A stretch of 42,299 nucleotides of DNA. It comes from Pelagimonas phthalicica (GTDB taxonomy: Bacteria; Pseudomonadota; Alphaproteobacteria; Rhodobacterales; Rhodobacteraceae). Position numbers and translations under genes: made by a program. The stretch covers positions 1 through 42,299 of the forward strand of contig NZ_SOAP01000008.1 of NCBI RefSeq assembly GCF_004364805.1. Direction: 5' to 3'. Shown piece by piece: positions 14,147-39,332 of this stretch (positions are counted from its first letter, which is position 1; every line of letters starts with the position of its first letter). A model generated the notes under the pieces. The model did no database searches. It was not told the DNA's origin and worked only from the letters and a program-made list of their open reading frames with translations.

Positions 14147-14175
14147 TTGACATTATTTAGAAGTCTAAGTTATTA
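14147..14175 (+). promoter_or_regulatory. Promoter with SlyA/MarR-type box before the aldehyde dehydrogenase operon
   Basis: TTGACA (14147-14152) sits 17 bp before TTATTA (14170-14175). The spacer contains TTAG-AAGT-CTAA (14157-14168), the same TTAG-N4-CTAA dyad found in the promoters at 24910 and 27634. SlyA of Salmonella is known to bind TTAGCAAGCTAA, so a MarR/SlyA-family repressor is the likely binder. The box lies 4 bp closer to the -35 element than in the other two promoters. Confidence 0.6.
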
Positions 14176-14202
14176 GGGCCTCAAGCCGGGAGAATACCTT
14201 AG

Positions 14203-15681
14203 ATGGAAAATCTGAAACTAGACGCGAAGCTCTCTCTTCAAGAACCAGCCCATCTCTACTACGGCGGCGCATGGGTGCCGCCACTAGAGGGAAAGTACGA
14301 AGACACTTTCAACCCAGGAACCGGCGAGCGGATCGGGTCGGTTGCGACGGCAAGTCGCGCCGATGTCGATGCGGCGGTTGCGGCAGCGAAAGAAGGGTTC
14401 GAGGTATGGCGGGATGTTGTGCCGCTGGAACGCGCACGTATCCTGAAGGAAATCGCAAATCTCTTGCGAAAGCATGGCGATGAACTGGCGATGATGGACG
14501 CTGCAAACTGTGGCAACCCCTATACTGAAATGCGCGGCGACGCCGCGATTGCGGCAGCGCAGATGGAGTTTTTCGCCGGTCTTGTGACCGAAATGAAGGG
14601 CGATACGATCCCTATGGGACCAGAGCGCATCAACATGACCCTACGCCAGCCGATGGGCGTGGTTGCACGGATTCTTGCCTTTAATCACCCGTTCATGTTC
14701 TGCGGCGGAAAGATGGCAGCGCCTCTGGCCGCAGGCAATGCCGTCATCATCAAGCCGCCGGTTCAGGCTCCGTTGTCTTCGCTGCGGCTGGCGGAGCTCA
14801 TCGATGGCCTGCTGCCTAAAGGCACGTTCAATGTTCTGCCGGGCGGCGTCGAGGCAGGAGCTGGGCTGGCCGAACATCCCGACGTCGCCAAGGTCACACT
14901 CATCGGCTCCGTACCCGCGGGCCGGGCGGTGATGCGCAGCGCGAGCGACACCGTCAAACCAGTGCTGCTCGAACTCGGCGGCAAGAACGCGCTGATCGCC
15001 TATCCGGACAGCGATCCGAAGATGATCGCCGATGCGATCGTCGGCGGCATGAATTTCGGCTGGTGCGGGCAATCTTGCGGATCGACGAGCCGCGCTTTCT
15101 TGCATGTAGACATCCACGATGCGGTCATCTCGCATCTCAAAGCGGCTGTCGAACGGTACAAGCCAGGCATTCCGACAGAGCCGGAGACCACGATGGGGGC
15201 GATCGTCAGCCGGACACAGTTCGATCGGATCATGGACTTCATCGAATCCGCCATGAGCGAAGGCGCGCGTGCCGTAACCGGCGGCCATGCGGTGACCGAA
15301 GGTGCGCTGGCACAGGGAAGCTTCATCGCGCCGACGATTTTTGCGGATGTAACGCCGCAGATGCGTATCGCCCGTGAAGAGATTTTCGGGCCAGTTCTTG
15401 CGGTTCGCAAATGGTCGGACGAAGATTCCATGCTGAACGAGGTCAATGCACTTGAGCTTGGGCTGACCTGCGCAATTTGGACTCGGGACTTGGTGACGGC
15501 TCATCGTACGGCTGCACGCGTCGAGGCCGGGTTTGTTTGGGTTAACGAAGTTGGCCGGCATTTCCTTGGTGCCCCGTTCGGCGGGGTCAAACAATCGGGT
15601 ATCGGGCGCGAAGAAGGTATTGGCGAGCTGATTTCCTTCACCCATGAAAAGAATGTGCATATCAATCTGTCGGGTCAGTGA
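14203..15681 (+). CDS. NAD(P)-dependent aldehyde dehydrogenase
   Basis: 492 residues, complete ALDH superfamily enzyme. Catalytic residues are visible: Glu257 in LLELGGKNALI and Cys292 in FGWCGQSCGST; the cofactor-binding GSVPAGRAVM loop and the C-terminal REEIFGPVLAV and FGGVKQSGIGREEG motifs are intact. It most resembles broad-range betaine/aromatic/hydroxy-aldehyde dehydrogenases; the substrate is not clear. First gene of a probable four-gene operon with nadC, the ThDP enzyme and the D-2-hydroxyacid dehydrogenase. Its promoter shares an operator type with the Rieske oxygenase genes. Confidence 0.88.
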   Translation: MENLKLDAKLSLQEPAHLYYGGAWVPPLEGKYEDTFNPGTGERIGSVATASRADVDAAVAAAKEGFEVWRDVVPLERARILKEIANLLRKHGDELAMMDAANCGNPYTEMRGDAAIAAAQMEFFAGLVTEMKGDTIPMGPERINMTLRQPMGVVARILAFNHPFMFCGGKMAAPLAAGNAVIIKPPVQAPLSSLRLAELIDGLLPKGTFNVLPGGVEAGAGLAEHPDVAKVTLIGSVPAGRAVMRSASDTVKPVLLELGGKNALIAYPDSDPKMIADAIVGGMNFGWCGQSCGSTSRAFLHVDIHDAVISHLKAAVERYKPGIPTEPETTMGAIVSRTQFDRIMDFIESAMSEGARAVTGGHAVTEGALAQGSFIAPTIFADVTPQMRIAREEIFGPVLAVRKWSDEDSMLNEVNALELGLTCAIWTRDLVTAHRTAARVEAGFVWVNEVGRHFLGAPFGGVKQSGIGREEGIGELISFTHEKNVHINLSGQ

Positions 15682-15807
15682 CCCGGTGCGTAGGTAATGT
15701 GCGAACGGGGTCTGGGATCCAAAAGCTTTTTCTTTATTGATTGCTTTGGCCGGGATGAGACCATCCCTTCCTGCCCCTTCTGCAAACCGACAAGGATCTG
15801 AAAAATA

Positions 15808-16659
15808 ATGAGCAATGTTGCGAACGTCCCCGATATCATCCTCGAACCTATGGTTCGGAACGCCATTGTGGAGGACCTGGGTGCAGCAGGCGACGTGACA
15901 ACCCGTTCCGTTCTGCCTGAAGGCACGCGCTACAAGGCGCAAATGCGTGCACGGCAGGACGCGGTTGTTTCTGGGATGCAGGTGGCCTCTCTGGCGTTTC
16001 GGCTGATTGATCCCGATCTTATTGTCGAGACTGTTGTCGCGGATGGTACGGCCTGCAAAACGGGCGATACCTTGATGCGTATAGAGGGATCGGCGGCGTC
16101 GATCCTTGCCGCAGAGCGTGTTGCCCTGAACTTTGCCGGGCGGTTGTCCGGGACGGCAACTTTGACAGCGTCCTATGTGCAGGAACTTGCGGGTACCAAG
16201 ACACGTATCACCTGTACGCGCAAAACCACACCGGGGCTGAAGCTTGTCGAGAAACTCGCGATTTTGCATGGCGGCGGCCACAATCACCGGTTTTCCCTGT
16301 CCGATGCAATCCTGATCAAGGACAACCATATCGCAGCGGCTGGTGGCATCAAACAGGTGCTGGAAGCCGTTCAGCGAAATGTGGGTCACATGGTCGTGGT
16401 TGAGATCGAGATCGACGGTTTGCATCAGTTGGACGAGGTGCTTCAGACCGGGGGCGCAGATGTCATCATGTTTGACAATATGTCGACCGAAGACATGGCC
16501 GAAGCCGTAAAGCGCATTGACGGGCGGGCGAAGACAGAAGCCAGCGGGAATGTGACCCTTGGCCGTTTGCGCGAAATCGCATCGGTAAATGTGGATTATA
16601 TTTCCTCCGGTGCTTTGACCCATTCGGCGGGAACCGTCGATTTCGGTTTGGATTTCTGA
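15808..16659 (+). CDS. nadC: Nicotinate-nucleotide diphosphorylase (quinolinate phosphoribosyltransferase) paralogue
   Basis: 283 residues, normal NadC length. It has the N-terminal lid (EDLGAAGDVTTRSVLPEG), ERVALNFAGRLSGTATLT, the substrate-binding CTRKTTPGLKLVEKLAI, GGGHNHRFSLSDAILIKDNH and the C-terminal VDYISSGALTHS. Known NadC makes nicotinate mononucleotide from quinolinate and PRPP. nadC normally sits with nadA and nadB, which are absent here. In this catabolic operon it may be an acquired paralogue with a changed substrate; quinolinate is a phthalate analogue, which is suggestive only. ModD proteins of molybdate clusters share the fold, but no mod genes are near. It starts 126 bp after the aldehyde dehydrogenase. 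Confidence 0.82.
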   Translation: MSNVANVPDIILEPMVRNAIVEDLGAAGDVTTRSVLPEGTRYKAQMRARQDAVVSGMQVASLAFRLIDPDLIVETVVADGTACKTGDTLMRIEGSAASILAAERVALNFAGRLSGTATLTASYVQELAGTKTRITCTRKTTPGLKLVEKLAILHGGGHNHRFSLSDAILIKDNHIAAAGGIKQVLEAVQRNVGHMVVVEIEIDGLHQLDEVLQTGGADVIMFDNMSTEDMAEAVKRIDGRAKTEASGNVTLGRLREIASVNVDYISSGALTHSAGTVDFGLDF

Positions 16660-16789
16660 TCCTCTGAACCACTCCAGACTGTCAGTGCTGAACAATTCCC
16701 GTCCTTTCGGCGGACAACGAAATCTTATTTGGTGCGCCTTTCCAAATGGGGTTGCCGCACCAACACATCGTAAAGAGAGGTCTGAAGAT

Positions 16790-18559
16790 ATGAGTGAAGG
16801 AATTCCATTGCCGGTTGAGCGCCCAGTATCGTCGGATAGTTTGGGAGTTTGGGGTAGCGATGTATTTGCGGATATGTTGCGAGGTTTGGGGGTGAAGTAT
16901 GTTGCGCTGAACCCTGGGTCGAGCTTTCGAGGTTTGCACGACAGCCTTGTGAACCACCTTGGTAATGAAGATCCGCAGATGCTGTTGTGTCTGCACGAAG
17001 AGCATGCGGTTGCGATTGCGCATGGCTATGCGAAAGTGACGGGGGAGCCATTGGCGGTGATCCTGCACAGCAATGTGGGTCTGATGCACGGGACGATGGC
17101 GATCTTCAACGCATGGTGTGATCGGGTTCCTGTGCTGATCTATGGTGCGACGGGGCCGGTTGATGCGGCGCTGCGGCGTCCTTGGATTGACTGGCTGCAT
17201 ACCTGCCGTGACCAGGCGTCGATGATCCGGAATTATGTGAAATGGGACGATCAGCCTGGCTCGATGGAGGCGGCGCTGGAATCGATGTTGCGGGCGGATG
17301 TGATTGCGCGGAGCGAGCCGAAAGGGCCGACCTATGTGAACTTTGATGTGTCGATCCAGGAAAAGCAGCACGCGCAGGCCCCGGCGCTGCCGGATTTTGC
17401 GCGTTACCAGCCGCCTTTGCCTGCGGCTCCTTCGGCCGAAGGCGTGGCACGTGCGGCGGACCTGCTGAAGAACGCCAAGGCGCCTGTGGTGCTGGCGGGG
17501 CGGGTGTCGCGCGATCCGGCGGATTGGGCGCGGCGTGTGGCCTTTGTCGAGGGGCTGGGGGCGAAGGTTCTGACGGATATCCGGATCGGGGCGTCTTTCC
17601 CGACGGATCACCCGCAGCATCGGGGTAAACCAGCCTTCTTCATCGACGACGCGGCGGGCGCGGTGCTGCGCGAGGCCGATGTGATCCTGAGCCTGGACTG
17701 GCTGGATGTCGCGGGTACGCTGAAACTGGCGGGCGAAGTGACGGCGCAGGTGATCCAGGCGTCGCTGGATTATCAGCTGCACAATGGCTGGGGGATGGAG
17801 CATCAGGCGCTGCCTGCGCTGGATCTGCACCTGGCCTGTGGCCCGGATGTTGCGATGCATGCGATTGCCGATGCCCTGGGTGTAGGGGCGGGCGAGATGC
17901 CCGGTGATTTGCCGGTCAAACCCGCGCTGAACGCCCCCGATGCAGATGTTGAGCTTGATATCATGACGCTGGCCGGGGCGCTTGGCGAAGGTTTGGAAGG
18001 TGTCTGTGCCAGCTTTGTGCGTTTGCCGTTGGGTTGGGCGGGCGAGGCGTGGCACTTCCGTCATCCGCTGGACTTCCTGGGTTCGGATGGCGGCGCGGGG
18101 ATCGGCTCGGGTCCTGGGATGCTGATCGGGGCGGCGCTGGCGCTGAAAGACAGCGACCGGCTGCCTGTTGCGGTTCTTGGGGACGGCGACTTCATGATGG
18201 CGGCCTCGGCATTTTGGACGGCGGCGCATTATGGCACTCCGTTCCTGGCGGTGGTGTCGAACAATCGCTCGTTCTACAATGACGAGGTGCACCAGGAACG
18301 CGTGGCCGTGGCCCGCAACCGCCCGGTCGAGAACAAGTGGATCGGCCAGCGTATCGGTGATCCGGATATCGACATTGCCGGAGTTGCGCGGGCGCAGGGC
18401 TGCGAAGGGATCGGCCCGGTCTTTACCGCGGGCGAGCTGGTCGAGGCGATCAAACAGGGCGTCGAGATGGTGCGCGCGGGCAAGAGCGTAGTGATCGATG
18501 CACGTGTCCAGCCGGGGTATAACCCCAACATGGTCGCTGGCCTGACGCGGAGCGACTGA
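16790..18559 (+). CDS. Thiamine-diphosphate-dependent enzyme (acetolactate synthase / benzoylformate decarboxylase superfamily)
   Basis: 589 residues with the three-domain layout of the family: N-terminal pyrimidine-binding domain with the catalytic Glu (about residue 70, CLHEEHAVAIAHGYAK), a central Rossmann-like domain (APVVLAGRVSRDP), and a C-terminal pyrophosphate-binding domain with the GDGD motif at 464-467 and the paired Asn 491-492 that close the ThDP motif. Probable reaction: decarboxylation or carboligation of a 2-oxoacid. ATG 16790 has AAGAGAGG upstream; an upstream in-frame ATG at 16685 adds 35 unlikely residues. Codon use is more G+C-rich than in the pca genes, hinting at a different origin. 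It is translationally coupled to the next gene by TGATG. Confidence 0.82.
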   Translation: MSEGIPLPVERPVSSDSLGVWGSDVFADMLRGLGVKYVALNPGSSFRGLHDSLVNHLGNEDPQMLLCLHEEHAVAIAHGYAKVTGEPLAVILHSNVGLMHGTMAIFNAWCDRVPVLIYGATGPVDAALRRPWIDWLHTCRDQASMIRNYVKWDDQPGSMEAALESMLRADVIARSEPKGPTYVNFDVSIQEKQHAQAPALPDFARYQPPLPAAPSAEGVARAADLLKNAKAPVVLAGRVSRDPADWARRVAFVEGLGAKVLTDIRIGASFPTDHPQHRGKPAFFIDDAAGAVLREADVILSLDWLDVAGTLKLAGEVTAQVIQASLDYQLHNGWGMEHQALPALDLHLACGPDVAMHAIADALGVGAGEMPGDLPVKPALNAPDADVELDIMTLAGALGEGLEGVCASFVRLPLGWAGEAWHFRHPLDFLGSDGGAGIGSGPGMLIGAALALKDSDRLPVAVLGDGDFMMAASAFWTAAHYGTPFLAVVSNNRSFYNDEVHQERVAVARNRPVENKWIGQRIGDPDIDIAGVARAQGCEGIGPVFTAGELVEAIKQGVEMVRAGKSVVIDARVQPGYNPNMVAGLTRSD

Positions 18560-19593
18560 TGATGACCCCGAAGATCTATATTGCGCAGGATCCTGTGCTG
18601 GAAGAGGTGTTGGACACCGCAACGGATCGGCTGCGGGCCGAAGGCTGGGAGGTCGTTCGCGGCCCCCAGATCACCCCGGGTGTTCCGCTGCGGCTGACGG
18701 GAGAGCAACGGCAGGCGCTGCTGTCGGACGTTGATATCATCGTGGCCAGCTCGCGGTCGCGGCTGAGCGAGGCGGATCTGGATGCCTCGCCACGGCTGCG
18801 GGCGCTGGTCTTTCCGACGATCGGGGTGGATGCGGTCGATCTGGAGGCCTGTGCCGCGCGTGGTCTGATCGTGGCCAATGGTGCAACGCCCGAGAACTTT
18901 CTGGCGATGTCAGAGGCGACAGTGATGCTGATGCTGGTGCTGCTGTACCGGCTGCATGAATCCGAACGCCTGCTACGCGAAAATGCGGGCCGGCCGCAGC
19001 AGATGTATGCGCGGATGGTGCGGGGCCGGACGATCGGCCTGATCGGGTCTGGCCGGATCGGGGCCGGGGTGATCGAGCGACTGCTGGCGTTCGAGCCGGC
19101 ACAGATCCTGGTGCACGATCCGTTCCTGACACCGGATACCGCGCCTACGGGCGTACGGTTGGTGGAGCGCGACGCGCTGCTGACCACGTGTGATGTGGTG
19201 AGCCTGCATGTGCCGTTGAACGCGCAGACACGGGGCATGATTGGCGAGGCTGAACTGCGCATGATGAAGCCGGATGCGGTTCTGATCAACACCTCGCGCG
19301 GGGGTCTCATTGACGAGGATGCGCTGGTGCGGGTGATGACCGCAGGGCACCTGGCTGGTGCGGGGCTGGACGTGACGGAAACCGAACCGCTGCCCGCCGA
19401 CCACCCGCTGCGCGGCCTCGACCGGGTGATCCTCACCCCGCATATCCTGGGCCACACCATTGATCTCTACACGGTCATGCCCGACGTCCTCGTCGAAAAC
19501 GCAACACGCATCATGAAAGGTGATCTGCCGACATATGTCAGGAACCCCGATGTGGTGGAACGCTGGCGACAAAAGTTGAACGATCTGAACTGA
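18559..19593 (+). CDS. D-isomer-specific 2-hydroxyacid dehydrogenase
   Basis: 344 residues. NAD-binding GSGRIG at 163-168 and the catalytic triad Arg247 (NTSRGGL), Glu276 (TETEPLP) and His295 (TPHILGHT) are all present, as in phosphoglycerate dehydrogenase-like enzymes. It would interconvert a D-2-hydroxyacid and a 2-oxoacid, and the 2-oxoacid could be the substrate of the ThDP enzyme whose stop codon it overlaps by one base. There is no C-terminal ACT domain, so it is not a full-length SerA. Like its partner it is very GC-rich. A second in-frame ATG follows immediately (MMTPK). Confidence 0.88.
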   Translation: MMTPKIYIAQDPVLEEVLDTATDRLRAEGWEVVRGPQITPGVPLRLTGEQRQALLSDVDIIVASSRSRLSEADLDASPRLRALVFPTIGVDAVDLEACAARGLIVANGATPENFLAMSEATVMLMLVLLYRLHESERLLRENAGRPQQMYARMVRGRTIGLIGSGRIGAGVIERLLAFEPAQILVHDPFLTPDTAPTGVRLVERDALLTTCDVVSLHVPLNAQTRGMIGEAELRMMKPDAVLINTSRGGLIDEDALVRVMTAGHLAGAGLDVTETEPLPADHPLRGLDRVILTPHILGHTIDLYTVMPDVLVENATRIMKGDLPTYVRNPDVVERWRQKLNDLN

Positions 19594-20014
19594 CCAGCCC
19601 CTCCGCGCGAACGGTGTGCACAGCTGAACTGCAGAGCCTATGTTCCTTGCACCTATTGAATGGCCGTGAACCGCGCCGGGTTTGCCGGAGGCGTTACACA
19701 ACGGTTGCCCGGCGCTGTGCGGCACAGTGGTGCAAGGCAGGTGTCGGCGCATGATGGTCGCGTTCTGGAAAGCAACCGGCGCACAATCCCGACACAGGGG
19801 CAAAACCACCCCGGAAGAAAGTCCATACTCGGGCCCAACGATAGGCACCCCGTCTTCCATGTCTTGACTTTGCACCAAGGCTCGGCACCTATGTTGCGCG
19901 CGCCACGCTAGGGTTGTGCCGCCGCCAAAGGCGTGCGGCAGAACTCTGGAGTTCCTAGCTATCAAGTCCGGGCGGGCGCGCTGTTTGGATAAAAACCATG
20001 TGTGGAGACAGGCC
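19594..20014. other. Intergenic region without recognisable gene
   Basis: 421 bp between the dehydrogenase and the MarR gene. Short open frames occur on both strands, but none has a convincing ribosome site or family similarity. No clear terminator hairpin with a T-run was seen after the dehydrogenase. The MarR promoter should lie near the right end but no good -35/-10 pair was identified. Confidence 0.5.
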
Positions 20015-20542
20015 GTGAGCGATGCGATGAAAGAAAAGCAAACAAGCCATGTGCCTGTCCGCCCCGACGAGCGCTTGGCCCGACTGGTGCGATTGGCGGC
20101 CCGCGGTTTCAACCGGGCTCTTCAACTTCGCCTGCAAACGGAAAATGTTACGTTCGGTCAGTGGATTTTCCTGCGCATCCTCTGGCAGGAAGACGGGTTG
20201 TCGCAACGCGAACTGAGCGACCGGGCGCATCTCACCGAACCCACCGCCCACACCGCGCTCATCAAAATGGAAGAATTGGGTTTCATAGAGCGACGCAACG
20301 TCGAGGGCAACAAACGGCGCCAGCACGCGTTTCTGACGCGGAAGGGCTTGGAGCTGCGCGACGTTCTCGAACCTCTGGCGCTCGAAGTGAACGATGCAGC
20401 GATGGCGGGACTGTCCAAGAAAGCTCAGGAAGACTTGCGACACGCACTTGCCGTGATGATCCGGAACCTCGAAAATGACGAACAGGATGCGGCCGCCAGA
20501 GGGGTCCGTGTTCCCCCGACCAAGGGCAACACAGAAAACTGA
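20015..20542 (+). CDS. MarR-family transcriptional regulator
   Basis: About 175 residues with a central winged helix-turn-helix: LSQRELSDRAHLTEPTAHTAL as recognition region and RRNVEGNKRRQHAFLTRKG as wing. Helical dimerisation segments flank it. MarR proteins usually repress transport or degradation genes and are released by an aromatic acid ligand. It stands 310 bp upstream of the TRAP receptor gene, whose promoter has a strong dyad, and is one of the candidates for binding the TTAG-N4-CTAA boxes. GTG at 20015 with GGAGACA upstream is preferred; ATG at 20027 is an alternative, and the longer frame from 19916 is unlikely. Confidence 0.82.
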   Translation: MSDAMKEKQTSHVPVRPDERLARLVRLAARGFNRALQLRLQTENVTFGQWIFLRILWQEDGLSQRELSDRAHLTEPTAHTALIKMEELGFIERRNVEGNKRRQHAFLTRKGLELRDVLEPLALEVNDAAMAGLSKKAQEDLRHALAVMIRNLENDEQDAAARGVRVPPTKGNTEN

Positions 20543-20770
20543 ATCGCGAGCCATGCGTGCCGAGGGTCCGGCGCGGGCCATTCAATGGCGGTGGCGGACA
20601 TAGATAGCCTATGGGGGCGGGGGTTTGAGGCCTGCTGCTCCGGGGCTCCACGGGTTGATAGTGCGTCACGACAAAGCACCTACGCCGGACACACGGCTTC
20701 GGCGTGTTCCGCGTCAGGAACTATGACCTGAGTGGCTTTCGCTGAACAATAATCTCGACTTCAATCAGGG

Positions 20771-20830
20771 TTGACGGGTGCGAGTGGATAGACTATTGGC
20801 ATTAAAGATAGATATCTAATATTAGATGTC
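20771..20830 (+). promoter_or_regulatory. TRAP receptor promoter with near-perfect 20-bp operator
   Basis: GATATCTAAT-ATTAGATGTC (20811-20830) is a 20-bp dyad in which nine of ten base pairs match; the inner 14 bp are perfect. A promoter TTGACG (20771) with TATTGG 17 bp later, or TTGGCA (20796) with TAATAT at about 20818, would put the dyad at the start site or over the -10. The half-site TTAGATGTC recurs exactly at 32689-32697 and, inverted, at 39333-39341. Probable MarR operator. Confidence 0.6.
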
Positions 20831-20852
20831 TACTGAAAACAGGGAGGAAGAC

Positions 20853-21842
20853 ATGAAATTTCCAATCAAAGCCGTTGCCGCATCGATCGGCCTTGCGGTT
20901 CTTGCGAGCGCTGCTTCCGCAGAAAGCGTTAATGTGACCCTTTCAGGCGGCAATCCCTCGGGGCTTTGGTCGCTTCTGGGCGCTGGTATTGACCGTGCCG
21001 TCAAGGCGGATGACCCGAGCGGCGTGGTGACCTATCAGGCCACCGGGGGTGGCTTTGCGAACATCGGCCTTCTGGGCCGTGAACGGACCGACCTGGGGAT
21101 GGCACATGATGCCGAGATCAAGCTGGCCCTCGCAGGGGACGAACCGTTTGACGCGCCGATCGAGAACCTTCAAGCCATCGGCTACATGTACAACTGGGCG
21201 CCGATGCACTTCTTCATCAAGAAGTCTCTTGCCGAAGAATATGGCATCGACAGCATTGACGACCTCGCGACGTCCGGCGCGGCGATCCGTGTTGCGAACA
21301 ACAATGCCGGGAACATCGTCGCCAACATCACGACCTTCATGCTCGAAGAGGCGGGCTACGACGAAGCCACGATCGAGTCCAATGGCGGCGTGCTTGTCCG
21401 CGGTGGTTCGTCACAGCAAGCAGATCTGATTGCAGACGGCCGCACCGATATGGTGATCAACGGCATTTTCATCGGACATTCGTCGTTCCGTAAAGTTGAC
21501 GAGGGCAATGACGTCGTGTTGCTCAGCGTTCCCGAAAACATCATCGCTGCGACCAACGAGCGTTTCGGAACCGGCACGTTCACAATTCCAGCCGACAGCT
21601 ACAAGAACCAGACCGAAGATGTCGTCACGCTCGCACTGGGTGCGATGGTAATCACTTCCGATGTACTGCCGGAAGAAACTGGCTACATGCTCGCAAAGAG
21701 CATCGCGTCCAATATCGACGAGATCCGCGGCGTGCATAAGGCGATGCAGGCGCTCACACCGGAACTTCTGACGTCGCAGACCACGCTGCCGTTCCATCCT
21801 GGTGCGGAGCGTGCCTACAAGGAACTGGGTCTGCTCAAGTAA
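20853..21842 (+). CDS. TAXI-family TRAP transporter solute-binding protein
   Basis: 329 residues. An N-terminal signal peptide (MKFPIKAVAASIGLAVLASA, cleavage likely after ASA at residue 23) marks a periplasmic receptor. The mature part has TAXI features: SGGNPSGLWSLLGAGI, GGGFANIGLLGRERTDLGMAH, NNNAGNIVANI and a late LTPELLTSQTTLPFHPGAERAY (split here) ending. It captures a carboxylated solute for the fused permease encoded next. Start ATG 20853 has GGGAGGA just upstream; an in-frame ATG at 20826 lies inside the operator and would spoil the signal peptide. The ligand is likely the aromatic acid processed by the downstream genes, an inference from position. Confidence 0.88.
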   Translation: MKFPIKAVAASIGLAVLASAASAESVNVTLSGGNPSGLWSLLGAGIDRAVKADDPSGVVTYQATGGGFANIGLLGRERTDLGMAHDAEIKLALAGDEPFDAPIENLQAIGYMYNWAPMHFFIKKSLAEEYGIDSIDDLATSGAAIRVANNNAGNIVANITTFMLEEAGYDEATIESNGGVLVRGGSSQQADLIADGRTDMVINGIFIGHSSFRKVDEGNDVVLLSVPENIIAATNERFGTGTFTIPADSYKNQTEDVVTLALGAMVITSDVLPEETGYMLAKSIASNIDEIRGVHKAMQALTPELLTSQTTLPFHPGAERAYKELGLLK

Positions 21843-22008
21843 GGTCGATCCCGCGATCCGGCCGGCGCGCGCTGCAACGACACGCGCCGGCCCACTCATG
21901 GACTGCACAGAGCAATGCCCCGCGGTGGCTACGTGAGATGTCACGTCATGTCATCGCGCGGCCCATACATCGCGGTTCTTTCTCTTCTCTGCCTTATACG
22001 GGGTCTAC

Positions 22009-23913
22009 ATGAATTTTCCTTCGCTTACAGAAACCGGTCGTCGTAGAAATTTAGGCTCGCCGATGAGAACCATCGTCATGGTTCTGGCGGCGGCATTCGC
22101 GGTTTGGGTAATCCACTCGAACCTCTTCATCATCTCCGATCCGCTCATTCAGGGCATTCTGTTCGTATCGGGCATTTTCACGATTCTCTTCCTCGCGATC
22201 GGCGCGACCTCGCGCGCGCCGGACAGCATTCCGATCTATGATTGGGTTCTCTCTGCGCTGAGCCTGGCCACAGGGGTGTATTTCTACGTGACCTCGGGAG
22301 CGATTGCGGACCGGATCAGTCTACTCGACGAATTCACAACCGATCAGTTTTTCTTTGGCTCAGCCTTGTTGTTTCTGACCATCGAAGCGACCCGCCGGAC
22401 CACCGGCCTAGGCCTGACCGGCGTTGTCGCCCTCTTCCTGATTTATAATCTGTTTGGCTCTCTTCTGCCGCCGCCATTCGGGCATCGCGTCAGCGAGTTC
22501 AGCTATCTCTTGGATATTCTGGTTTTCACCACCGATGGACTTTTTGGCGTGCCGCTTCAGGTCGTTGCCAGCTATGTTTTCCTGTTCGTGATGTTTGGAA
22601 CATTCCTGGCCAAGGCCGGGGGAGGGGACTTCTTTTTCAACCTTGCAGCGCTTGTGACCGGCAATGCGCGCGGCGGCCCCGCCAAAATCGCGATCATTTC
22701 GTCGGGCCTGTACGGCACGATGTCCGGGAGCCCAACATCCGATGTTGTTGCAACGGGGTCGATCACGATCCCTGTCATGAAGCGACTCGGCTATCGGGCA
22801 CGGTTCGCGGGGGCGGTGGAAGTCGCGGCGTCGTCTGGCGGAAGCGCGATGCCTCCGATCATGGGGTCAGCAGCCTTCATCATGGCCGAGTATTCCGGCA
22901 TTTCCTACAACGCCATCGTGCTCGCCGCTCTGGTGCCGGCGCTTCTATACTACACGGGTGTCTTCGCTCAGGTTCACTTCCGGTCAGTCAAGCACAACCT
23001 TCGACCCTCTGCAGACGAAATACCTTCAGCAAAGGAAACATTCAGGACCGGATGGGTTTTCCTGCTGCCGATCATCGGCATCATCGTCGCCCTCATTCTG
23101 GGGTATTCCCCGACCTTCACAGCCGGTGTCGGAGTTCTGGTAACCATCCTGTCCGCGATGATGCTGAAAGACACACGGCTGTCACTGTGGCAGTTGGTGG
23201 AAGGGCTGGGGGCGACTACGCTCCAGATTCTGCCAGTCGCCGGCGCTTGTGCCGCGGCCGGTCTTGTGATTGGCGGCTTGTCGATGACCGGCCTTGGAAT
23301 GAAATCCGCGAACGTCATTTTGACTGTCAGCAACATGCAACCACTGCTGACACTCGTTATCGCCGCGGTCGTCACGATTGTTCTCGGTCTCGGGATGCCA
23401 ACGCCCAGTGCGTATATCCTGGCAGCCGTGCTGGTCGGACCGGCGCTGGCAAAGCTCGGTTTCCCGACGTTGCCGAGCCAGATGTTTCTGCTCTACTACG
23501 CGATTCTCTCGGCACTGACGCCACCGATTGCTGTGGCTGCAATCGCGGCCTCAGCGATTGCCGACGAAGACCCCTTCAAGATCGCGTTCTCTGCAGTCCG
23601 GCTAGCCGTCGTCGGCTTCCTGCTGCCCTTCGCCTTCGTGTGGAACCCGGGTATCCTCCTAGAACTTGGCCCCCTGGCAAACACCTTGGCCGTCGTGGGT
23701 GCGTTTGCCGGAGCCCTCGCGGTCGCAGCCTCTCTGGAAGGCTTGGTCAAGACGCAACTCACTGCAATCGAAAGGGGCGTACTTCCCATCGCTGCGATTG
23801 GCGCCGTAAGCCCATATTTGGCGGTATCCGCGATCTGTATTTTGGTGATTGTCGCAATGCTAATCCGGCAGATCGCTTTCACGACAGAAAGCGCCCACGT
23901 CGACAGTGCCTAG
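22009..23913 (+). CDS. TRAP transporter fused permease (DctQM-type, TAXI subfamily)
   Basis: 634 residues, many hydrophobic helices. The first 200 residues correspond to the small (DctQ-like) subunit and the rest to the large (DctM-like) subunit; fusion is normal in TAXI systems. DctM landmarks are GGGDFFFNLAALVTGNARGG, KIAIISSGLYGTMSGSPTSD, GGSAMPPIMGSAAF and LGMPTPSAYIL. It drives Na+- or H+-coupled uptake across the inner membrane using the upstream receptor. A gap of 166 bp separates the two genes. Confidence 0.9.
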   Translation: MNFPSLTETGRRRNLGSPMRTIVMVLAAAFAVWVIHSNLFIISDPLIQGILFVSGIFTILFLAIGATSRAPDSIPIYDWVLSALSLATGVYFYVTSGAIADRISLLDEFTTDQFFFGSALLFLTIEATRRTTGLGLTGVVALFLIYNLFGSLLPPPFGHRVSEFSYLLDILVFTTDGLFGVPLQVVASYVFLFVMFGTFLAKAGGGDFFFNLAALVTGNARGGPAKIAIISSGLYGTMSGSPTSDVVATGSITIPVMKRLGYRARFAGAVEVAASSGGSAMPPIMGSAAFIMAEYSGISYNAIVLAALVPALLYYTGVFAQVHFRSVKHNLRPSADEIPSAKETFRTGWVFLLPIIGIIVALILGYSPTFTAGVGVLVTILSAMMLKDTRLSLWQLVEGLGATTLQILPVAGACAAAGLVIGGLSMTGLGMKSANVILTVSNMQPLLTLVIAAVVTIVLGLGMPTPSAYILAAVLVGPALAKLGFPTLPSQMFLLYYAILSALTPPIAVAAIAASAIADEDPFKIAFSAVRLAVVGFLLPFAFVWNPGILLELGPLANTLAVVGAFAGALAVAASLEGLVKTQLTAIERGVLPIAAIGAVSPYLAVSAICILVIVAMLIRQIAFTTESAHVDSA

Positions 23914-24113
23914 CTGTGGCGCCTCAGCAGGTTGCCCCTATTGAAGTGCAGTCTGGTCATCGAGGGATTCAACCCAGAGGCGGCATTTGGTCTGGGCCAA
24001 TTTTTAAGGTTGGTCCGGGCCGGTCGGCCTATGACACCGAACACAGGCGGCCACTTCCGTAGGTGGGAACTGATCATTTCGCAACCGGCGCAAAGTATGT
24101 CGAGGTTCAGAAA

Positions 24114-24689
24114 ATGAATGAAACACGGGGGCCGGAAGAACTTGGGCCAAAACAGCTTAGTATTGGCGCCGACGCGATCTCCGAGCTGTCGGTTTCAATC
24201 AGAGCGCCCCTTGTACAGGCTGCGGTCGTCGCGAAGGCGATCAACGATTTCGTTCCCGATCACCTAGATTGCTGCCGACCTGACAGGCCAGTGTCGGTGC
24301 AGAACCAGACTAGCTCTGAGGAGTTCACCTTTTTGCTTACCCTGCGTGGGGAAGAAATATCCGAGTCGCTCCGAGACGAAATGGCCGCATTGGCCCGTGA
24401 CCTCGAAGAGAGACTGAGCTTTGCTTTGGTGGCGGAAGGACACCAGGTGTCGGCCAACGATACGGACCCGAAACCGCCAGCCGCGCCGCGCTACTGGAAG
24501 GCCTGGGTCGCCAGCATGTTGGGTGTCTATCCTCTGCTGATCCTTATCTACTACGCGCTGCAACCGCTCACGCAAAACCTTCCAGGGCCGATGTCTCTGT
24601 TTCTTGTTGCGCTGGTGCTCACCGGAGTGAACGGTGTCTACGTTGCGCCGTTTCTGGGCAAAAGCTTGCATCCATGGCTCTCACGGTGA
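24114..24689 (+). CDS. Small membrane protein with a COG3224-like C-terminus (antibiotic-biosynthesis-monooxygenase relatives)
   Basis: About 191 residues from ATG 24114 (an upstream in-frame ATG at 24063 adds 17). The C-terminal third reads RYWKAWVASMLGVYPLLILI, then a second hydrophobic helix (residues about 160-180) and a LHPWL ending. This is the pattern of the two-helix membrane anchor found on antibiotic biosynthesis monooxygenase-type proteins of COG3224. The N-terminal 120 residues look soluble but do not show a clear ABM dimeric barrel motif. It lies 200 bp after the permease, in the same direction. Function unknown; it could be accessory to transport or oxygenation. Confidence 0.5.
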   Translation: MNETRGPEELGPKQLSIGADAISELSVSIRAPLVQAAVVAKAINDFVPDHLDCCRPDRPVSVQNQTSSEEFTFLLTLRGEEISESLRDEMAALARDLEERLSFALVAEGHQVSANDTDPKPPAAPRYWKAWVASMLGVYPLLILIYYALQPLTQNLPGPMSLFLVALVLTGVNGVYVAPFLGKSLHPWLSR

Positions 24690-24909
24690 AGCGAGATGGT
24701 GCGCTTGCCGGGACTCATGCACAGGCTGGCCGCCATGACACCTCAGTGACGGGCCCGGCAAGCCGCTGTCGGGGAGGTTCCGGACCACAATTGCGCGAAA
24801 GTATCTCGGTTTTGCGATCTCGTCAGCTTGATCTAGTTCAGAACCCGCTATTTCGGACAACAAGTTAGGTCGATACCTACAACGCGGGCAAAAAAAGTGG
24901 CAGGCTACG

Positions 24910-24938
24910 TTGACAGATAAAACTTAGAGAGCTAAGAA
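24910..24938 (+). promoter_or_regulatory. Promoter with SlyA/MarR-type box before the Rieske oxygenase
   Basis: TTGACA at 24910-24915, then 7 bp, then CTTAG-AGAG-CTAAG (24923-24936), a dyad with perfect 5-bp arms. The -10 region (TAAGAA, 17 bp from the -35) falls inside the right arm, so a bound repressor would block polymerase. The spacing from TTGACA to the dyad is identical to that at 27634. The 310 bp between the preceding gene and the oxygenase hold no other recognised feature. Confidence 0.65.
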
Positions 24939-25000
24939 TAATTGAGAGGTCGAAAACCACTCATCCACTGAAAGAGTCGGATGCCATTGGAGGAGCCCAG

Positions 25001-26281
25001 ATGCTTACACCCGAAGAGAATGAACTGCTTACACGCGTAACGGGGGATGCCCCGATGGCGCGACTTATGCGTCAGCATTGGACGCCTGTATGCCTGATCG
25101 AAGAGGTTGAAGAGTCGGACGGCAAACCGCTTCGAGTCGAAGTTCTCGGCGAAAGCTATGTCGCGTTCCGGGATACCAAGGGTCGTCTGGGAATGCTGGA
25201 TGAGCTTTGCCCGCACAGAAAGGCCTCTCTGGTCTATGGCCGTAACGAGGAATGTGGGCTGCGCTGCCTCTATCACGGCTGGAAGATGGATGTTGAAGGC
25301 AATGTCGTCGCAATGTCTTCAGAGCCGGAAGGCAGTCCATTGATGGACAAGGTCAAACATCGTTCCTACCCCGTGCGGGAGTGGGGCGGCTTCGTCTGGG
25401 CTTGGCTCGGCGAGAAAGATGATATGCCCGAGTTCCAGCCGCCGGCCTTTGCGCCAACCGAAGACACCCCAGTTTCGATCCTGAAGATTCGCGTGCCCGC
25501 CAACTGGGCGCAGATTCACGAGGGCCAGATCGATAGCGCGCATTCATCATCGCTCCATTCCTCGAATATGGTTCCGGCACGGGTCGAGGGCGCCGCGGCG
25601 GACGACAAATCATGGTACCGCCCGTCGACAGACAAATCTCCGCGTATGCAGACTGAAACCACGAGCTACGGTTTCCATTACGCGGCGATCCGTAAGCCGA
25701 TCAAAAACGCTCAGACGCATAACTATCTCCGGATCACCGAATTTATCGCGCCCTATTATTCGCTGATTCCGCCGAACAACAACTACCGGGTCGCCAGCGT
25801 CATCGTGCCGATCAATGACGATGAGACAGCGTTTCACTTCATAGCCTTCGACGGACCGAACGTTCCCTCCACCAAAGAGTGGCGCAAGTTTGCCCATGCC
25901 GTACCGGGTGAGGACGTGGACCATAAATGGCGCTCTCTCCGGACGTTGGAGAACGACTTCAAGCAGGACCGCGAAAGGATGAAAGAGGGCCACTTTACCG
26001 GCGTGGACGGCATTCCGAACGAAGATATTGTGATGTGGGTTTCGATGGGTAGCCGCGTGCAGCGTCACACGGACATTCTTGGGGCCTCCGACCTAGCGAT
26101 TGTCGAGTTCCGCCGGCTCATGGCCGATGCGGCAAAGAAAGTCGCCGAAGGTGGCCAGGCAATCGGCACCGACTCGAAGATTCCGCAAAGGGTAATCGCC
26201 TCTCACGAGGGCGTGTATCCTAAGGACGTCGATTGGCGAACACTGGTAGACACGTCGAGCAAGACGGAAGCGGCCGAATAA
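25001..26281 (+). CDS. Rieske non-haem iron oxygenase, phthalate 4,5-dioxygenase type
   Basis: 426 residues, alpha-subunit-only (group I) oxygenase. The Rieske centre ligands are Cys70-His72 (CPHRKASL) and Cys89/His92 (CLYHGWK). The mononuclear iron site is the D-x2-H-x4-H motif with Asp178, His181 and His186 (IDSAHSSSLH), where Asp178 is the subunit-bridging acid. The order and spacing match phthalate 4,5-dioxygenase. Predicted reaction: dihydroxylation of a phthalate-like diacid using electrons from the reductase at 27695. No beta subunit is nearby, as expected for this group. AGGAG precedes ATG 25001. A terminator follows, so it is transcribed apart from the genes to its right. Confidence 0.8.
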   Translation: MLTPEENELLTRVTGDAPMARLMRQHWTPVCLIEEVEESDGKPLRVEVLGESYVAFRDTKGRLGMLDELCPHRKASLVYGRNEECGLRCLYHGWKMDVEGNVVAMSSEPEGSPLMDKVKHRSYPVREWGGFVWAWLGEKDDMPEFQPPAFAPTEDTPVSILKIRVPANWAQIHEGQIDSAHSSSLHSSNMVPARVEGAAADDKSWYRPSTDKSPRMQTETTSYGFHYAAIRKPIKNAQTHNYLRITEFIAPYYSLIPPNNNYRVASVIVPINDDETAFHFIAFDGPNVPSTKEWRKFAHAVPGEDVDHKWRSLRTLENDFKQDRERMKEGHFTGVDGIPNEDIVMWVSMGSRVQRHTDILGASDLAIVEFRRLMADAAKKVAEGGQAIGTDSKIPQRVIASHEGVYPKDVDWRTLVDTSSKTEAAE

Positions 26282-26306
26282 CTTGCGCACATGTTTCCTC
26301 CCTGAA

Positions 26307-26346
26307 CCGTCCAAAGCCTCAAGGGGTTTTGGGCGGCTCTTTTTTC
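26307..26346 (+). terminator. Rho-independent terminator after the Rieske oxygenase
   Basis: CCGTCCAAAGCC (26307-26318) pairs with GGTTTTGGGCGG (26325-26336), 12 bp including two G-T pairs, followed by CTCTTTTTT. It should end most transcripts from 24910 before the FMN oxidase gene. Confidence 0.8.
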
Positions 26347-26408
26347 GTGGTGCCGTCGGACTTTCATAGCTTCCCTCGACGGTTTCTGCTCGACGGGCGA
26401 CAGGCGTT

Positions 26409-27554
26409 ATGACGACAGCAATCAATATCGAAGACTTGCGAGCGCAGGCACGGCGTCGCCTGCCACGGGTGGTGTTCGATTATTTGGATGGGGGCGCGGA
26501 ATCGGAGGTGACGCTGCGGCGCAATCGCAGTTCCTTCACGAATATCGTTCTCACGCCGCGAATCCTCAAAGGGGGGAGCGTCGATCTCACCTTGGAGCTG
26601 TTCGGGGAAACATACTCGAAGCCGTTTTTCATAGGGCCGACAGGGCTGAATGGGCTCTACTGGCCCCAGGGAGATCTGCACCTCGCCGCTGCGGCCGAAC
26701 GGGCTGGGGTCGGTTTCACGGTTTCGACCGCCTCGAACACGACGCTGGAAGAGATCGCGCGGAGGAGCAAGGGTCCCCTCTGGTTCCAGCTTTATCCTTG
26801 GGGGAAGGGCGCATTCGCTGATGCGCTGATCGACCGGGCGCAGGCGGCCGGTTACTCGGCTCTGGTACTGACTGTCGATTCACTCGTGGGCGGCAAGCGC
26901 GAACGTGATCTGCGGCACGGCTTCGCCCACGAAATCCGCATTGGCCCCCGGACTGTTCTCGATGGGCTTCTGCATCCTGCTTGGCTGACCTCCGTATGGC
27001 TCGGGCCGCACCGTCCCAGACTTGAGAACCTCTTGGACTTTGTCGGAAACAGCGCGAGCGACAGAGAACTGGCCGAGTTTACCCGATCTCAGCGGAACCC
27101 GGAGTTTTCATGGGAACATGTTCGCCGCATTCGGGAGAAATGGAAAGGCCCGCTGCTGATCAAGGGTATCATGTGCCCAGAAGATGCGATTGACGCGCAA
27201 CGCGCCGGTGTGGATGGAATCGTCGTCTCGAACCATGGTGGCCGTCAGCTTGATGGCGCTCCTGCCACCATCGACGTACTCGCAAATATCATCGCGGCTC
27301 TTGATCGGAAGTTCCCGGTTCTGCTGGACGGCGGCATTCGTCGCGGCAGTGACATCGTGAAAGCGCTCACCCTGGGCGCGAAGGGCGTTCTGCTGGGTCG
27401 CGCGCCGCTCTATGGCTTGGCGGCGCAAGGCGAGGCGGGCGCGTCACGGGCGCTTTCGATCCTTGAAGAGGAGATGACGAGGACCATGACCTTTGTGGGC
27501 GCAAGATCCGTGTCCGCTGTCTCAGGTGTCAACGTCGAAACGCGACGGCCATAA
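26409..27554 (+). CDS. FMN-dependent alpha-hydroxyacid oxidase/dehydrogenase
   Basis: 381 residues, family of L-lactate dehydrogenase, mandelate dehydrogenase and glycolate oxidase. N-terminal NIEDLRAQARRRLPRVVFDYLDGG is characteristic. The catalytic His and Arg lie in VSNHGGRQLDG, the FMN phosphate-binding loop in LLDGGIRRGSDIVKAL and GAKGVLLGRAPLYG. It oxidises an L-2-hydroxyacid to a 2-oxoacid; mandelate-like aromatic acids fit the setting, but the substrate is open. It lies between a terminator and the reductase promoter, with no strong promoter of its own seen, so it may depend on readthrough. ATG 26409 has only GGCG-type upstream sequence, a weak ribosome site. Confidence 0.85.
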   Translation: MTTAINIEDLRAQARRRLPRVVFDYLDGGAESEVTLRRNRSSFTNIVLTPRILKGGSVDLTLELFGETYSKPFFIGPTGLNGLYWPQGDLHLAAAAERAGVGFTVSTASNTTLEEIARRSKGPLWFQLYPWGKGAFADALIDRAQAAGYSALVLTVDSLVGGKRERDLRHGFAHEIRIGPRTVLDGLLHPAWLTSVWLGPHRPRLENLLDFVGNSASDRELAEFTRSQRNPEFSWEHVRRIREKWKGPLLIKGIMCPEDAIDAQRAGVDGIVVSNHGGRQLDGAPATIDVLANIIAALDRKFPVLLDGGIRRGSDIVKALTLGAKGVLLGRAPLYGLAAQGEAGASRALSILEEEMTRTMTFVGARSVSAVSGVNVETRRP

Positions 27555-27633
27555 CAGGTTCCTCCACTAGTAGCACCTGCACGTTCTCGATGGCTCGCCC
27601 AAGGTTGAGGATGACTGCGCAGCACATGGTCTG

Positions 27634-27662
27634 TTGACACACATAACTTAGCTATCTAAACA
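27634..27662 (+). promoter_or_regulatory. Promoter with SlyA/MarR-type box before the reductase operon
   Basis: TTGACA (27634-27639), 7 bp, then CTTAG-CTAT-CTAA (27647-27659); TAAACA begins 17 bp after the -35 as a weak -10. The arrangement superimposes base for base on the promoter at 24910, indicating that the same repressor controls the oxygenase and its reductase although they are separate transcripts. Confidence 0.65.
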
Positions 27663-27694: not shown

Positions 27695-28633
27695 ATGGAG
27701 AATATCAAGATGCGCGTCGAGAAACGGCGTGACTTGACCCCGAGCATCGCCGAATTCACCCTGGTGCCGGTTGGGGGCGATGTGCTCCCTAGTTTCGATC
27801 CTGGTGCTCACATCACCTTGGAAACTCCGTCCGGAGCGATGCGTCGCTATTCGCTGATCAACGATGGCAGCGACCCAAAGGAATTTGTTGTCGCGATCAA
27901 AAAAGAACCGAATTCGCGTGGGGGCTCCGCGTCGATGCACGAACAGGCGACCGTCGGGTCCGAGTTGACAGTCGAATTCCCGGAAAACGATTTCCCGCTA
28001 ACCGATGTTCAGAAGTACCTGCTCATCGCCGGCGGTATCGGGATCACGCCGATTCTGTCGATGGCACGGTATCTCGACAAGAAGGGCAAGATGCTCAGAA
28101 TCATCTACGTCAGCCGCAGTCCGGAGGAATCGGCCTATCTGGATGAACTGATGAGAGATTTCGATGGCCGGATCATTGTGCACCATGACGGCGGCGCTCC
28201 GGATGCAGTCTACGATTTCTGGGACGATCTCGTCACGCCCCGTGCCACTCACGTCTTCTGTTGTGGTCCGAAACCGCTGATGGATGAAATCAAGGCCGTT
28301 TCCGGGCACTGGCCGGAGGGGCGAGTTCACTTCGAGGATTTCAAGCCCATCGATGTGGTGCGCCAAGACGATGTCTCTTTCGAAGTGGAGCTGAAAAAAA
28401 GTGGCGAAACCGTCACGGTGCCCGAAGATCGTTCGATCTTGGAGGCATTGCGTGACGCCGGATTCGCAACGTCCAGCTCCTGTGAAAGTGGCACATGCGG
28501 CACCTGCAAGACCCGCCTCCTCGAGGGGAAAGCTGACCATCGCGACATGGTGCTTATGGAAGAGGAAAAAAGCGACCATATAATGATTTGTGTATCCCGC
28601 GCGCTATCGGGGAGGCTGGTTCTTGACCTCTGA
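27695..28633 (+). CDS. Phthalate dioxygenase reductase-type flavo-iron-sulfur protein
   Basis: 312 residues in the PDR order: flavin-binding beta-barrel (RRYSLIND at 50-57), NADH domain (GGIGITP at 113-119, CCGPKPLM near 189) and a C-terminal plant-type 2Fe-2S domain with Cys263, Cys268, Cys271 and Cys299 (CESGTCGTC and ICVSRA). It passes electrons from NADH to a Rieske oxygenase, presumably the one at 25001. The same layout serves vanillate demethylase reductases. GGGAGG lies before ATG 27695. Its end overlaps the next gene by 11 bp. Confidence 0.88.
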   Translation: MENIKMRVEKRRDLTPSIAEFTLVPVGGDVLPSFDPGAHITLETPSGAMRRYSLINDGSDPKEFVVAIKKEPNSRGGSASMHEQATVGSELTVEFPENDFPLTDVQKYLLIAGGIGITPILSMARYLDKKGKMLRIIYVSRSPEESAYLDELMRDFDGRIIVHHDGGAPDAVYDFWDDLVTPRATHVFCCGPKPLMDEIKAVSGHWPEGRVHFEDFKPIDVVRQDDVSFEVELKKSGETVTVPEDRSILEALRDAGFATSSSCESGTCGTCKTRLLEGKADHRDMVLMEEEKSDHIMICVSRALSGRLVLDL

Positions 28634-31283: not shown

Positions 31284-32222
31284 ATGACCACCGCAGGGTT
31301 CGGCGGCCTCTTGGCCGCGTTCGGAGCGTTCTGCTACGCCTTGAGTTCGGTTTCCATTGCCAAGAGTTCGCAATCGGTTCAGGGCCGCGGCAACGACGTT
31401 CTTATCTCTGTGCTGATGACCGCCGTTGTCTCCGGGGCGCTTTGGCTGCTCCTGGGCCCAACGATGCCGGAACTTGGACTCGGTGCGCTCATTGGTGCGG
31501 CTTATTTCGTTGCAGCCGGGGTGCTTGGCAACGTTGTCGGCCGTCTTACGCTGTTCCGCTCGGTAGAGCTTGCCGGAGCCATCGAGACCGGTTTCATCCG
31601 ACGCCTGATACCAGTGTTTGCGGCGCTGTTGGCGTTCTTTCTGCTCGGTGAGGTCATCACGACACCTGTGGTCATCGCCTTCTTCCTGGTTACCAGCGGC
31701 GTGGTAATCATGATGTCACGCGCTTCGGTCAAATCGGCTTCTGACTTGGCGGTCGGAGATCCTGACCCTCGAGAGAAGAACAAGGGCCGGGCGATGGCCG
31801 TAGCGTCCGCCGCCGGGTATGGCGGCTCTTTCGTCTCCCGAAAGCTCGCGATGCAGACTTTGCCGGACCCTCTGGCCGGAGTTTTCATCGGTGCGATGAC
31901 GGGTCTAATGTGGTTTGCGGTCTCCTGGGTGTTCCGGTTCAAATCGCGCAACGCGTTGTCCTGGCGAATTCAGCGGCCGAGCAGGTGGCAACTGCTGGCT
32001 GGCAGTTCGATGACCGTTGGGCAAGTGGCGCTGTTCTTTTCACTTATGTTCACTGATGTGACCGTCGTCGCGATCATGTCTTCGATCGAGATGTTCTTTG
32101 CCGCCTGGCTCGCAGGCCACATCTTCAAAACCGAACGGCGCCCGGGTCCCAGATTCTACCTGTCGTCTGCACTAGCCGCGACCGGTGTGACACTTCTCGC
32201 CCTTGCGCCAAGGTTTGGTTAG
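31284..32222 (+). CDS. EamA/DMT-family membrane transporter
   Basis: 312 residues with about ten predicted membrane helices in two halves, the drug/metabolite transporter plan; a loop near residues 150-170 (SASDLAVGDPDPREKNKGR) separates them. The second half has the EamA-like VALFFSLMFTDVTVVAIMSS. It could export a toxic intermediate or import a pathway substrate. It starts 27 bp after the unknown protein with a poor ribosome site, likely coupled. Its end overlaps the convergent MarR gene by four bases. Confidence 0.8.
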   Translation: MTTAGFGGLLAAFGAFCYALSSVSIAKSSQSVQGRGNDVLISVLMTAVVSGALWLLLGPTMPELGLGALIGAAYFVAAGVLGNVVGRLTLFRSVELAGAIETGFIRRLIPVFAALLAFFLLGEVITTPVVIAFFLVTSGVVIMMSRASVKSASDLAVGDPDPREKNKGRAMAVASAAGYGGSFVSRKLAMQTLPDPLAGVFIGAMTGLMWFAVSWVFRFKSRNALSWRIQRPSRWQLLAGSSMTVGQVALFFSLMFTDVTVVAIMSSIEMFFAAWLAGHIFKTERRPGPRFYLSSALAATGVTLLALAPRFG

Positions 32223-39285: not shown

Positions 39286-39332
39286 GCGGCGATCGCGACC
39301 CGGCTATCTCTTGAAGTGCGGCAAAAAACATA

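Follow-up and report, generated by a model that had tools for sequence, protein, structure and literature searches.

The pht cluster and its TTAG-N4-CTAA boxes

The stretch of Pelagimonas phthalicica DNA analysed here (42,299 nucleotides, referred to as the window) carries what is, by homology, an o-phthalate 4,5-dioxygenase (pht) cluster, with pht2, pht3, pht4 and pht5 all together. Phthalate is a building block of plasticizers. The cluster also includes TRAP transporter genes, an operon that starts with an aldehyde dehydrogenase (ALDH) gene and nadC, and two MarR-family regulator genes, called MarR 20015 and MarR 32219 after their first coordinates (Table 1). Against the PDB, the oxygenase at 25001 matched a chain of 7fjl, a Rieske domain protein, with 580 bits, and 7fhr, a putative phthalate 4,5-dioxygenase, with 205 bits. 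Our main subject is a short dyad, TTAG-N4-CTAA (the box), that recurs at the promoters of this cluster.

An earlier reading of this DNA, made from the letters alone (the sequence-only reading), had pointed out three such dyads, each after an exact TTGACA, and had expected fewer than one by chance. All three are present: the exact box occurs in the window at 14157, 24924 and 27648, and the gap from TTGACA is 4 bases at the first site and, as had been noted, identical (8 bases) at the other two. In 100 dinucleotide shuffles of the window the exact motif appeared 0.09 times on average and never more than once, and none of the shuffles reached three. The motif could have been equally frequent in coding DNA of the same genome, but a scan of all 4,886,351 bases showed that it is not: exact boxes were found at 6 places, whereas the reversed control pattern has 63. 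The window promoters account for three of the six; the others lie within a long open reading frame (ORF), between ORFs in a repeat, and at the start of an ORF that looks sugar-transferase-like by eye, where TTAGGAGG resembles a ribosome site. Chance is excluded for the exact boxes. Allowing one mismatch, the window scan added boxes at 20808, 20822, 32689 and 39330, which the sequence-only reading had missed; more than three promoters probably belong to the regulon.

Table 1. Genes and candidate regulatory sites of the phthalate cluster, in window coordinates. L067 is a locus of another genome.
Feature	Coordinates	Strand	Assignment and basis
TTGACA 14147-14152, N4, box TTAGAAGTCTAA 14157-14168	14147..14168	+	Candidate promoter and operator of the ALDH-nadC-ThDP-2HADH operon
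Aldehyde dehydrogenase (ALDH), probable 2-carboxybenzaldehyde (2-formylbenzoate) dehydrogenase	14203..15681	+	Pfam Aldedh; 77% to annotated phdK in L067
nadC, second genomic copy	15808..16659	+	nadC equivalog 307 bits, cut-off 198
Thiamine diphosphate (ThDP) enzyme, benzoylformate-decarboxylase-like	16685..18559	+	56% homologue annotated mdlC in L067
D-2-hydroxyacid dehydrogenase (2HADH)	18559..19593	+	Domain match
MarR-family regulator (MarR 20015), most likely binder of the boxes	20015..20542	+	Pfam MarR; co-occurrence with boxes
Tandem boxes ATAGATATCTAA 20808-20819 and TTAGATGTCTAC 20822-20833, centres 14 bp apart	20808..20833	+	5' of the TAXI-TRAP gene
TAXI-family TRAP solute receptor	20826..21842	+	Domain match; true start probably ATG 20853
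TRAP fused permease (DctM)	22009..23913	+	Domain match
TTGACA 24910-24915, N8, box TTAGAGAGCTAA 24924-24935	24910..24935	+	Predicted pht3 promoter
pht3/ophA2, phthalate 4,5-dioxygenase oxygenase	25001..26281	+	90% to pht3 annotated on Marinibacterium plasmid
Flavin mononucleotide (FMN)-dependent 2-hydroxyacid dehydrogenase (lactate oxidase / mandelate dehydrogenase family)	26409..27554	+	
TTGACA 27634-27639, N8, box TTAGCTATCTAA 27648-27659	27634..27659	+	Predicted pht2-pht4-pht5 promoter
pht2/ophA1, reductase	27695..28633	+	69% to ophA1 on Marinibacterium plasmid
pht4, dihydrodiol dehydrogenase (Gfo/Idh/MocA)	28590..29810	+	72% to pht4 on Marinibacterium plasmid
pht5, 4,5-dihydroxyphthalate decarboxylase	29807..30799	+	85% to annotated pht5 on Marinibacterium plasmid
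Second MarR regulator (MarR 32219), accessory	32219..32671	-	MarR domain
Box TTAGATGTCTTA, 1 mismatch	32689..32700	.	Between MarR 32219 and the Rieske ferredoxin gene
Dyad AGTAAG-GCAAT-CTTACT	32730..32746	.	Probable operator of MarR 32219
Rieske ferredoxin-type protein	32786..33151	+	
Box ATAGACATCTAA, 1 mismatch	39330..39341	.	Before the universal stress protein gene, 39388-40212

Conservation of the boxes and choice of the regulator

The boxes were followed in relatives. In 13 relatives located through MarR 32219, and hence biased for its presence, the exact box was found in 13/13 at the pht3 and pht2 promoters and likewise at the ALDH promoter, there with a constant TTGACA-N4; six of the 13 are near-identical at the ALDH promoter and the rest differ. 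Upstream of TAXI-TRAP, the first tandem box was present in 15/15 sequences and the second in 14/15, and the 39330 box was found with one mismatch in 12 of 14 loci. It is this conservation in relatives, and not their number, that supports the one-mismatch boxes. Across all loci compared, some of them near-duplicates, an exact box preceded pht3 in 36 of 42, pht2 in 34 of 41 and the ALDH gene in 16 of 31; the remaining 15 ALDH rows comprised one with a one-mismatch box and 14 misses, six of them operon-internal by the annotation tables and eight only 30-55% identical. Exact boxes before operon-internal genes were counted at pht4 (1/41), pht5 (1/43, with two more at one mismatch), the TRAP permease (0/28), the ThDP enzyme (0/16), the FMN-dependent dehydrogenase (0/17) and an amidohydrolase (0/15). 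After the 42 loci had been reduced to 32 non-redundant ones, the pht2 and pht3 promoters were scanned for all palindromes with 4-base arms and spacers of 0 to 10, and TTAG-N4-CTAA ranked first (27/32 loci); in shuffles it averaged 0.145 and never exceeded 1, and no palindrome of any kind scored above 6. The cluster thus has what a regulon should have, a short palindromic operator candidate common to several promoters and kept in relatives.

The sequence-only reading had proposed that one MarR repressor, 20015 or 32219, coordinates the three operons. Both proteins match the family (PF01047, gathering cut-off 24.6; 39.8 bits for MarR 20015 and 59.6 for MarR 32219), although for the former the listed ORF, 20002-20478, is a different frame without a family match and the right frame is 20015-20542. 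Among the 20 best pht3 plasmid records listed, a MarR 20015-type gene (E <= 1e-15) was found in all 20 and a 32219-type gene (>= 59% identity) in 10. Nine of the ten plasmid clusters without the 32219 type were examined, and all nine have exact boxes before pht2 and/or pht3. Similarly, searches of 11 whole genomes returned no MarR 32219 orthologue in 10 (best match 27-34%, or nothing at E <= 1e-10), and these ten keep the boxes. Across the class, MarR 20015 homologues (E <= 1e-15) were found in 43 of 385 genomes, the window's own included.

These counts bear on an alternative in which the repressor bound to the TTAG boxes of the operons is MarR 32219 and not MarR 20015. The MarR 32219 gene adjoins the pht2-pht5 operon, a SlyA is the best PDB match of the protein, and the 32689 box lies at the gene's own promoter (one mismatch in 12/15 loci). 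However, this box is missing from the other 3/15, and the same gap holds a different dyad, AGTAAG-N5-CTTACT, which 13 of 15 loci carry in exact form and the other two with a single base changed; in the window the exact form occurs only at 32730. With boxes kept in clusters that have MarR 20015 only, and with this separate dyad, the case for MarR 32219 as the binder fell, and we regard it as very unlikely. Because the boxes persist without MarR 32219, which has a dyad of its own, MarR 20015 is preferred. With 29 bp between the 32689 box and the 32730 dyad, both proteins could act there, and both genes are present in 13/13 genomes of the set located through MarR 32219; the two might then share the boxes, competing for them or answering two different inducers. 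Against this stands the different conserved dyad beside MarR 32219, no copy of which was found at the pht promoters of the window, and a shared box seems improbable to us. On the simplest reading, MarR 32219 would be a local second regulator under the first. Two copies of its dyad were seen in one relative (L018).

Co-occurrence was then tabulated for 79 loci, namely 18 plasmid stretches, the regions of 51 other MarR 20015 matches and 10 further plasmid stretches, six of which were picked since their record had no MarR 20015 match (identity cut-offs of 37% for MarR genes and 40% for those of the pht set). One or more exact boxes were present in 25 of the 26 loci with pht3 and a MarR 20015-type gene, in 22 of the 26 no further than 350 bp from a gene of the cluster (MarR included), and in 2/2 loci with other pht genes and a MarR 20015-type gene. 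The exact box was found in 3 of 36 loci where a MarR 20015-type gene lies without pht genes, in 1 of 7 with neither (weak MarR homologues) and in 0 of 6 with pht-like genes and no MarR 20015-type gene; none of these six has pht3, and one (L177) has a 34% homologue. Both loci scored as pht3 without a MarR 20015-type gene have an exact box; a homologue does exist in L183, where its 36% identity falls slightly short of the cut-off, and in L185, where it lies just beyond the stretch. The exact box was absent from control regions taken from nine of these genomes (nine regions, 165 kb). When genomes were located through pht3 instead of MarR (5 of 390 in the order, the window's own included), the other four all had a MarR 20015-type gene, together with an exact box upstream of pht3, pht2 or both. 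One of the four, L064, has its exact box before pht2 and a one-mismatch box between pht3 and the divergent MarR gene.

It could also be that some regulator encoded elsewhere binds the box, MarR 20015 being a mere neighbour whose binding is a prediction from sequence comparison and whose own promoter has no consistent box in the window's group. However, in alpha-, beta- and gammaproteobacteria whose clusters otherwise have different neighbours, pht genes are accompanied by the same box and a MarR 20015-type gene, which makes this the most improbable of the alternatives. We conclude that the boxes are very probably operators of one MarR-family repressor, MarR 20015, controlling an o-phthalate regulon. 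The proposal of the sequence-only reading is therefore upheld by comparison in favour of 20015, with binding itself a prediction.

Several points weigh against this conclusion. The search for the 32219 type in the plasmid records covered the plasmid alone, not the chromosome, and the two cut-offs of the 79-locus table were set post hoc. One locus, L160, has pht3 and a 38% MarR 20015 homologue and no box. As no pht3 cluster examined clearly lacks a MarR 20015-type gene, a box that follows the pht genes and a box that follows MarR 20015 are separated only partly, and the assignment of MarR 20015 as the binder comes from comparing sequences. The promoter of MarR 32219 carries a box, and that of MarR 20015 has no consistent one in the window's group (<=1 mismatch in 3/16, scattered). 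Finally, the number of boxes with up to one mismatch in the window is not above chance (7, compared with a shuffle mean of 4.72; 18/100 shuffles reach 7), and the same count across the whole genome is not informative, at 252 places against 1593 when the pattern is reversed as a control. In more distant relatives a box does precede the MarR 20015-type gene (exact in L078, one mismatch in L082 and L064). In the window MarR 20015 starts 421 bp after the 2HADH gene, so that transcripts reading through from the boxed ALDH promoter could provide feedback.

The 34 pht-linked MarR 20015 homologues share R19, A21, N98 and other residues that are mostly absent from 40 unlinked ones (L084, L160 and L185 stand outside both groups); these residues are a lead only, for effector or DNA specificity. 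MarR 20015-type genes also lie beside nadC in Variovorax (L080, 7820-9465) and Neptuniibacter (L083, 7918-9378), in stretches with no pht3. L080 has one-mismatch boxes between nadC and MarR, and L083 has an exact box before TAXI.

The ALDH operon and a candidate o-phthalate regulon

The operon behind the first box had seemed unrelated to the pht genes, and the suspicion of the sequence-only reading that it is part of the pathway is supported by comparison. Since its ALDH resembles phdK, a 2-carboxybenzaldehyde dehydrogenase, and its nadC is a second copy (66% identical to the other, at C4), the ALDH-nadC-ThDP operon probably belongs to phthalate degradation. Phthalate is a competitive inhibitor of the NadC enzyme, quinolinate phosphoribosyltransferase. 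In Burkholderia cepacia DBO1 a second copy, OphE, is reported to be induced by phthalate (Chang and Zylstra, 1999). As with OphE, a second nadC is placed among phthalate genes here, and by analogy it may have an OphE-like role; the difference is that nadC shares its operon with the ALDH and ThDP enzyme under a MarR-type box. The OphE work is cited in PMC6051330, where the nadC of a Sphingobium cluster is named phtD.

The FMN-dependent dehydrogenase, 2HADH and ThDP enzyme resemble a mandelate-type route and may form a side route from 2-carboxymandelate or phthalonate into the pathway. A mandelate or vanillyl-mandelate pathway had been considered and was set aside once pht4, pht5 and the pht3 match showed phthalate. 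Further upstream lie protocatechuate 3,4-dioxygenase, cycloisomerase-type lyase, hydrolase, CoA transferase and thiolase domains together with a PcaR-type IclR gene; this domain content suggests the protocatechuate branch of the beta-ketoadipate pathway.

On the proposed mechanism, a MarR 20015 dimer would occupy TTAG-N4-CTAA when no inducer is present. With -10 regions predicted from a 17-base spacing, the box at 14157 would fill the stretch that separates TTGACA from the -10 region, those at 24924 and 27648 would overlap the -10 region and block RNA polymerase, and the two tandem boxes of the TRAP promoter, downstream of its -10, would form a roadblock. The inducer, phthalate or a closely related compound, would bind MarR 20015 and release it, turning on TAXI-TRAP uptake, Pht2/3/4/5 and the ALDH that would channel 2-carboxybenzaldehyde into phthalate, while the extra NadC would sustain NAD synthesis as phthalate inhibits quinolinate phosphoribosyltransferase. 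MarR 32219 would be a later regulator of a lower tier, with its own operator at 32730.

More tentatively, and as a joint claim that is possible but somewhat doubtful, the cluster may be a mobile, self-contained two-tier regulon. MarR 20015 would be an ancient o-phthalate-sensing repressor with an operator kept across alpha-, beta- and gammaproteobacteria; it would govern uptake, ring attack, the FMN-dependent dehydrogenase/2HADH/ThDP/ALDH side route (2-carboxymandelate or phthalonate to 2-carboxybenzaldehyde to phthalate), a NAD-protecting NadC and the stress protein; and a subset of roseobacters would have gained a second MarR with its own operator, itself under the first.

Relation to known systems and further observations

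MarR genes adjoining phthalate genes are already known (PMC6051330, PMC9604089, PMC5031561). PMC5031561 lists OphR as a 'transcriptional regulator, MarR family', alongside OphH, a hemerythrin-like protein, and credits a 2008 thesis by Han on how phthalate genes are organised and regulated; this regulator may already be defined in that thesis. By its description OphR is likewise a MarR-family regulator of phthalate genes, and MarR 20015 may well be its relative; paralleling OphH, hemerythrin genes occur in the Polaromonas and Variovorax clusters examined here. The Thalassospira phdK-pht cluster of PMC9604089, in which growth on 2-carboxybenzaldehyde is reported, has pht3, pht2, pht4, pht5, a TRAP transporter, a chemotaxis gene and a MarR gene, and shares with the window the ALDH gene (phdK) beside pht genes, the TRAP genes and the MarR gene. 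In the accessible parts of that paper the MarR gene is only listed, with no operator, and the window adds the FMN-dependent dehydrogenase, 2HADH, the second MarR, the ferredoxin and the universal stress protein. On a Thalassospira plasmid (L068) we found an exact box between pht2 and pht3.

In Sphingobium yanoikuyae SHJ (PMC6051330) a MarR gene and nadC also lie among the phthalate genes, the former being named phtR and regulator from annotation as far as the source could be consulted. The SHJ protein that corresponds to phtR by position and length is only 31% like MarR 20015, and a second MarR in that stretch is 38% like it. The name phtR has also been given to IclR-type genes (PMC10134610, PMC12728591). 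DesR of Sphingobium SYK-6 (PMC6888825) is another MarR repressor for aromatic catabolism, with several operators over the -35 region or downstream of the start site; it differs in its operator, GTTTGTGTNACATAC, and in its effectors, vanillate and syringate. The sequence-only reading had called the box SlyA-type, and its eight arm letters are indeed identical to those of the SlyA consensus TTAGCAAGCTAA (PMC5797941), but neither MarR protein reaches the SlyA equivalog cut-off of 120 bits (27.6 for MarR 20015, 45.2 for MarR 32219). In Escherichia coli, SlyA is described as acting by antagonising H-NS.

Among the entries listed, the literature searched, with most subscription journals outside its reach, yielded no operator for a MarR regulator of phthalate genes, and none is described in the accessible parts of PMC13040137, PMC6051330, PMC11683335, PMC9604089, PMC6588033, PMC6362003, PMC10134610, PMC12728591, PMC5031561 and PMC12445078. 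According to the text available from a 2026 review (PMC13040137), the known o-phthalate clusters have transcription-factor genes of their own; the regulator singled out there as characterised in detail is IphR, for isophthalate. With a defined operator linked to a single regulator gene, o-phthalate sensing could be tested directly, and a sensor part for plasticizer monitoring would become available. A shared operator would explain a NAD-biosynthesis gene within a catabolic operon, and one short motif with one protein would allow the regulon to be predicted in many genomes.

Additional boxes were seen in individual relatives. L056 and L057 have, besides the tandem pair, an exact TTAGTTGACTAA box 62 bp before TAXI that embeds TTGAC. 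One-mismatch TTAGCTATCTAT boxes follow TTGACA in L067 (30208-30219) and L072 (28222-28233); the one in L067 precedes a gene annotated as o-phthalyl amidase and suggests that the regulon may extend to phthalyl amide release. In the Thalassospira cluster a one-mismatch box (L068, 26268-26279) precedes a methyl-accepting chemotaxis gene. In Phaeobacter P88 (L069, 4803-9411) the ALDH, ThDP and 2HADH matches are fragmented, as if decaying, and boxes remain.

Within the window, a 208-amino-acid ORF without a Pfam match (24063-24689) lies between the TRAP permease and pht3 and is kept in some relatives. Integrase-core (transposase) ORFs lie at 35178-35753 and 204-1031. The 39330-type box lies ~2.2 kb from MarR 32219 in L008-L011, against ~6.3-6.7 kb in L012 and the window; a gain or loss of DNA has therefore taken place here.

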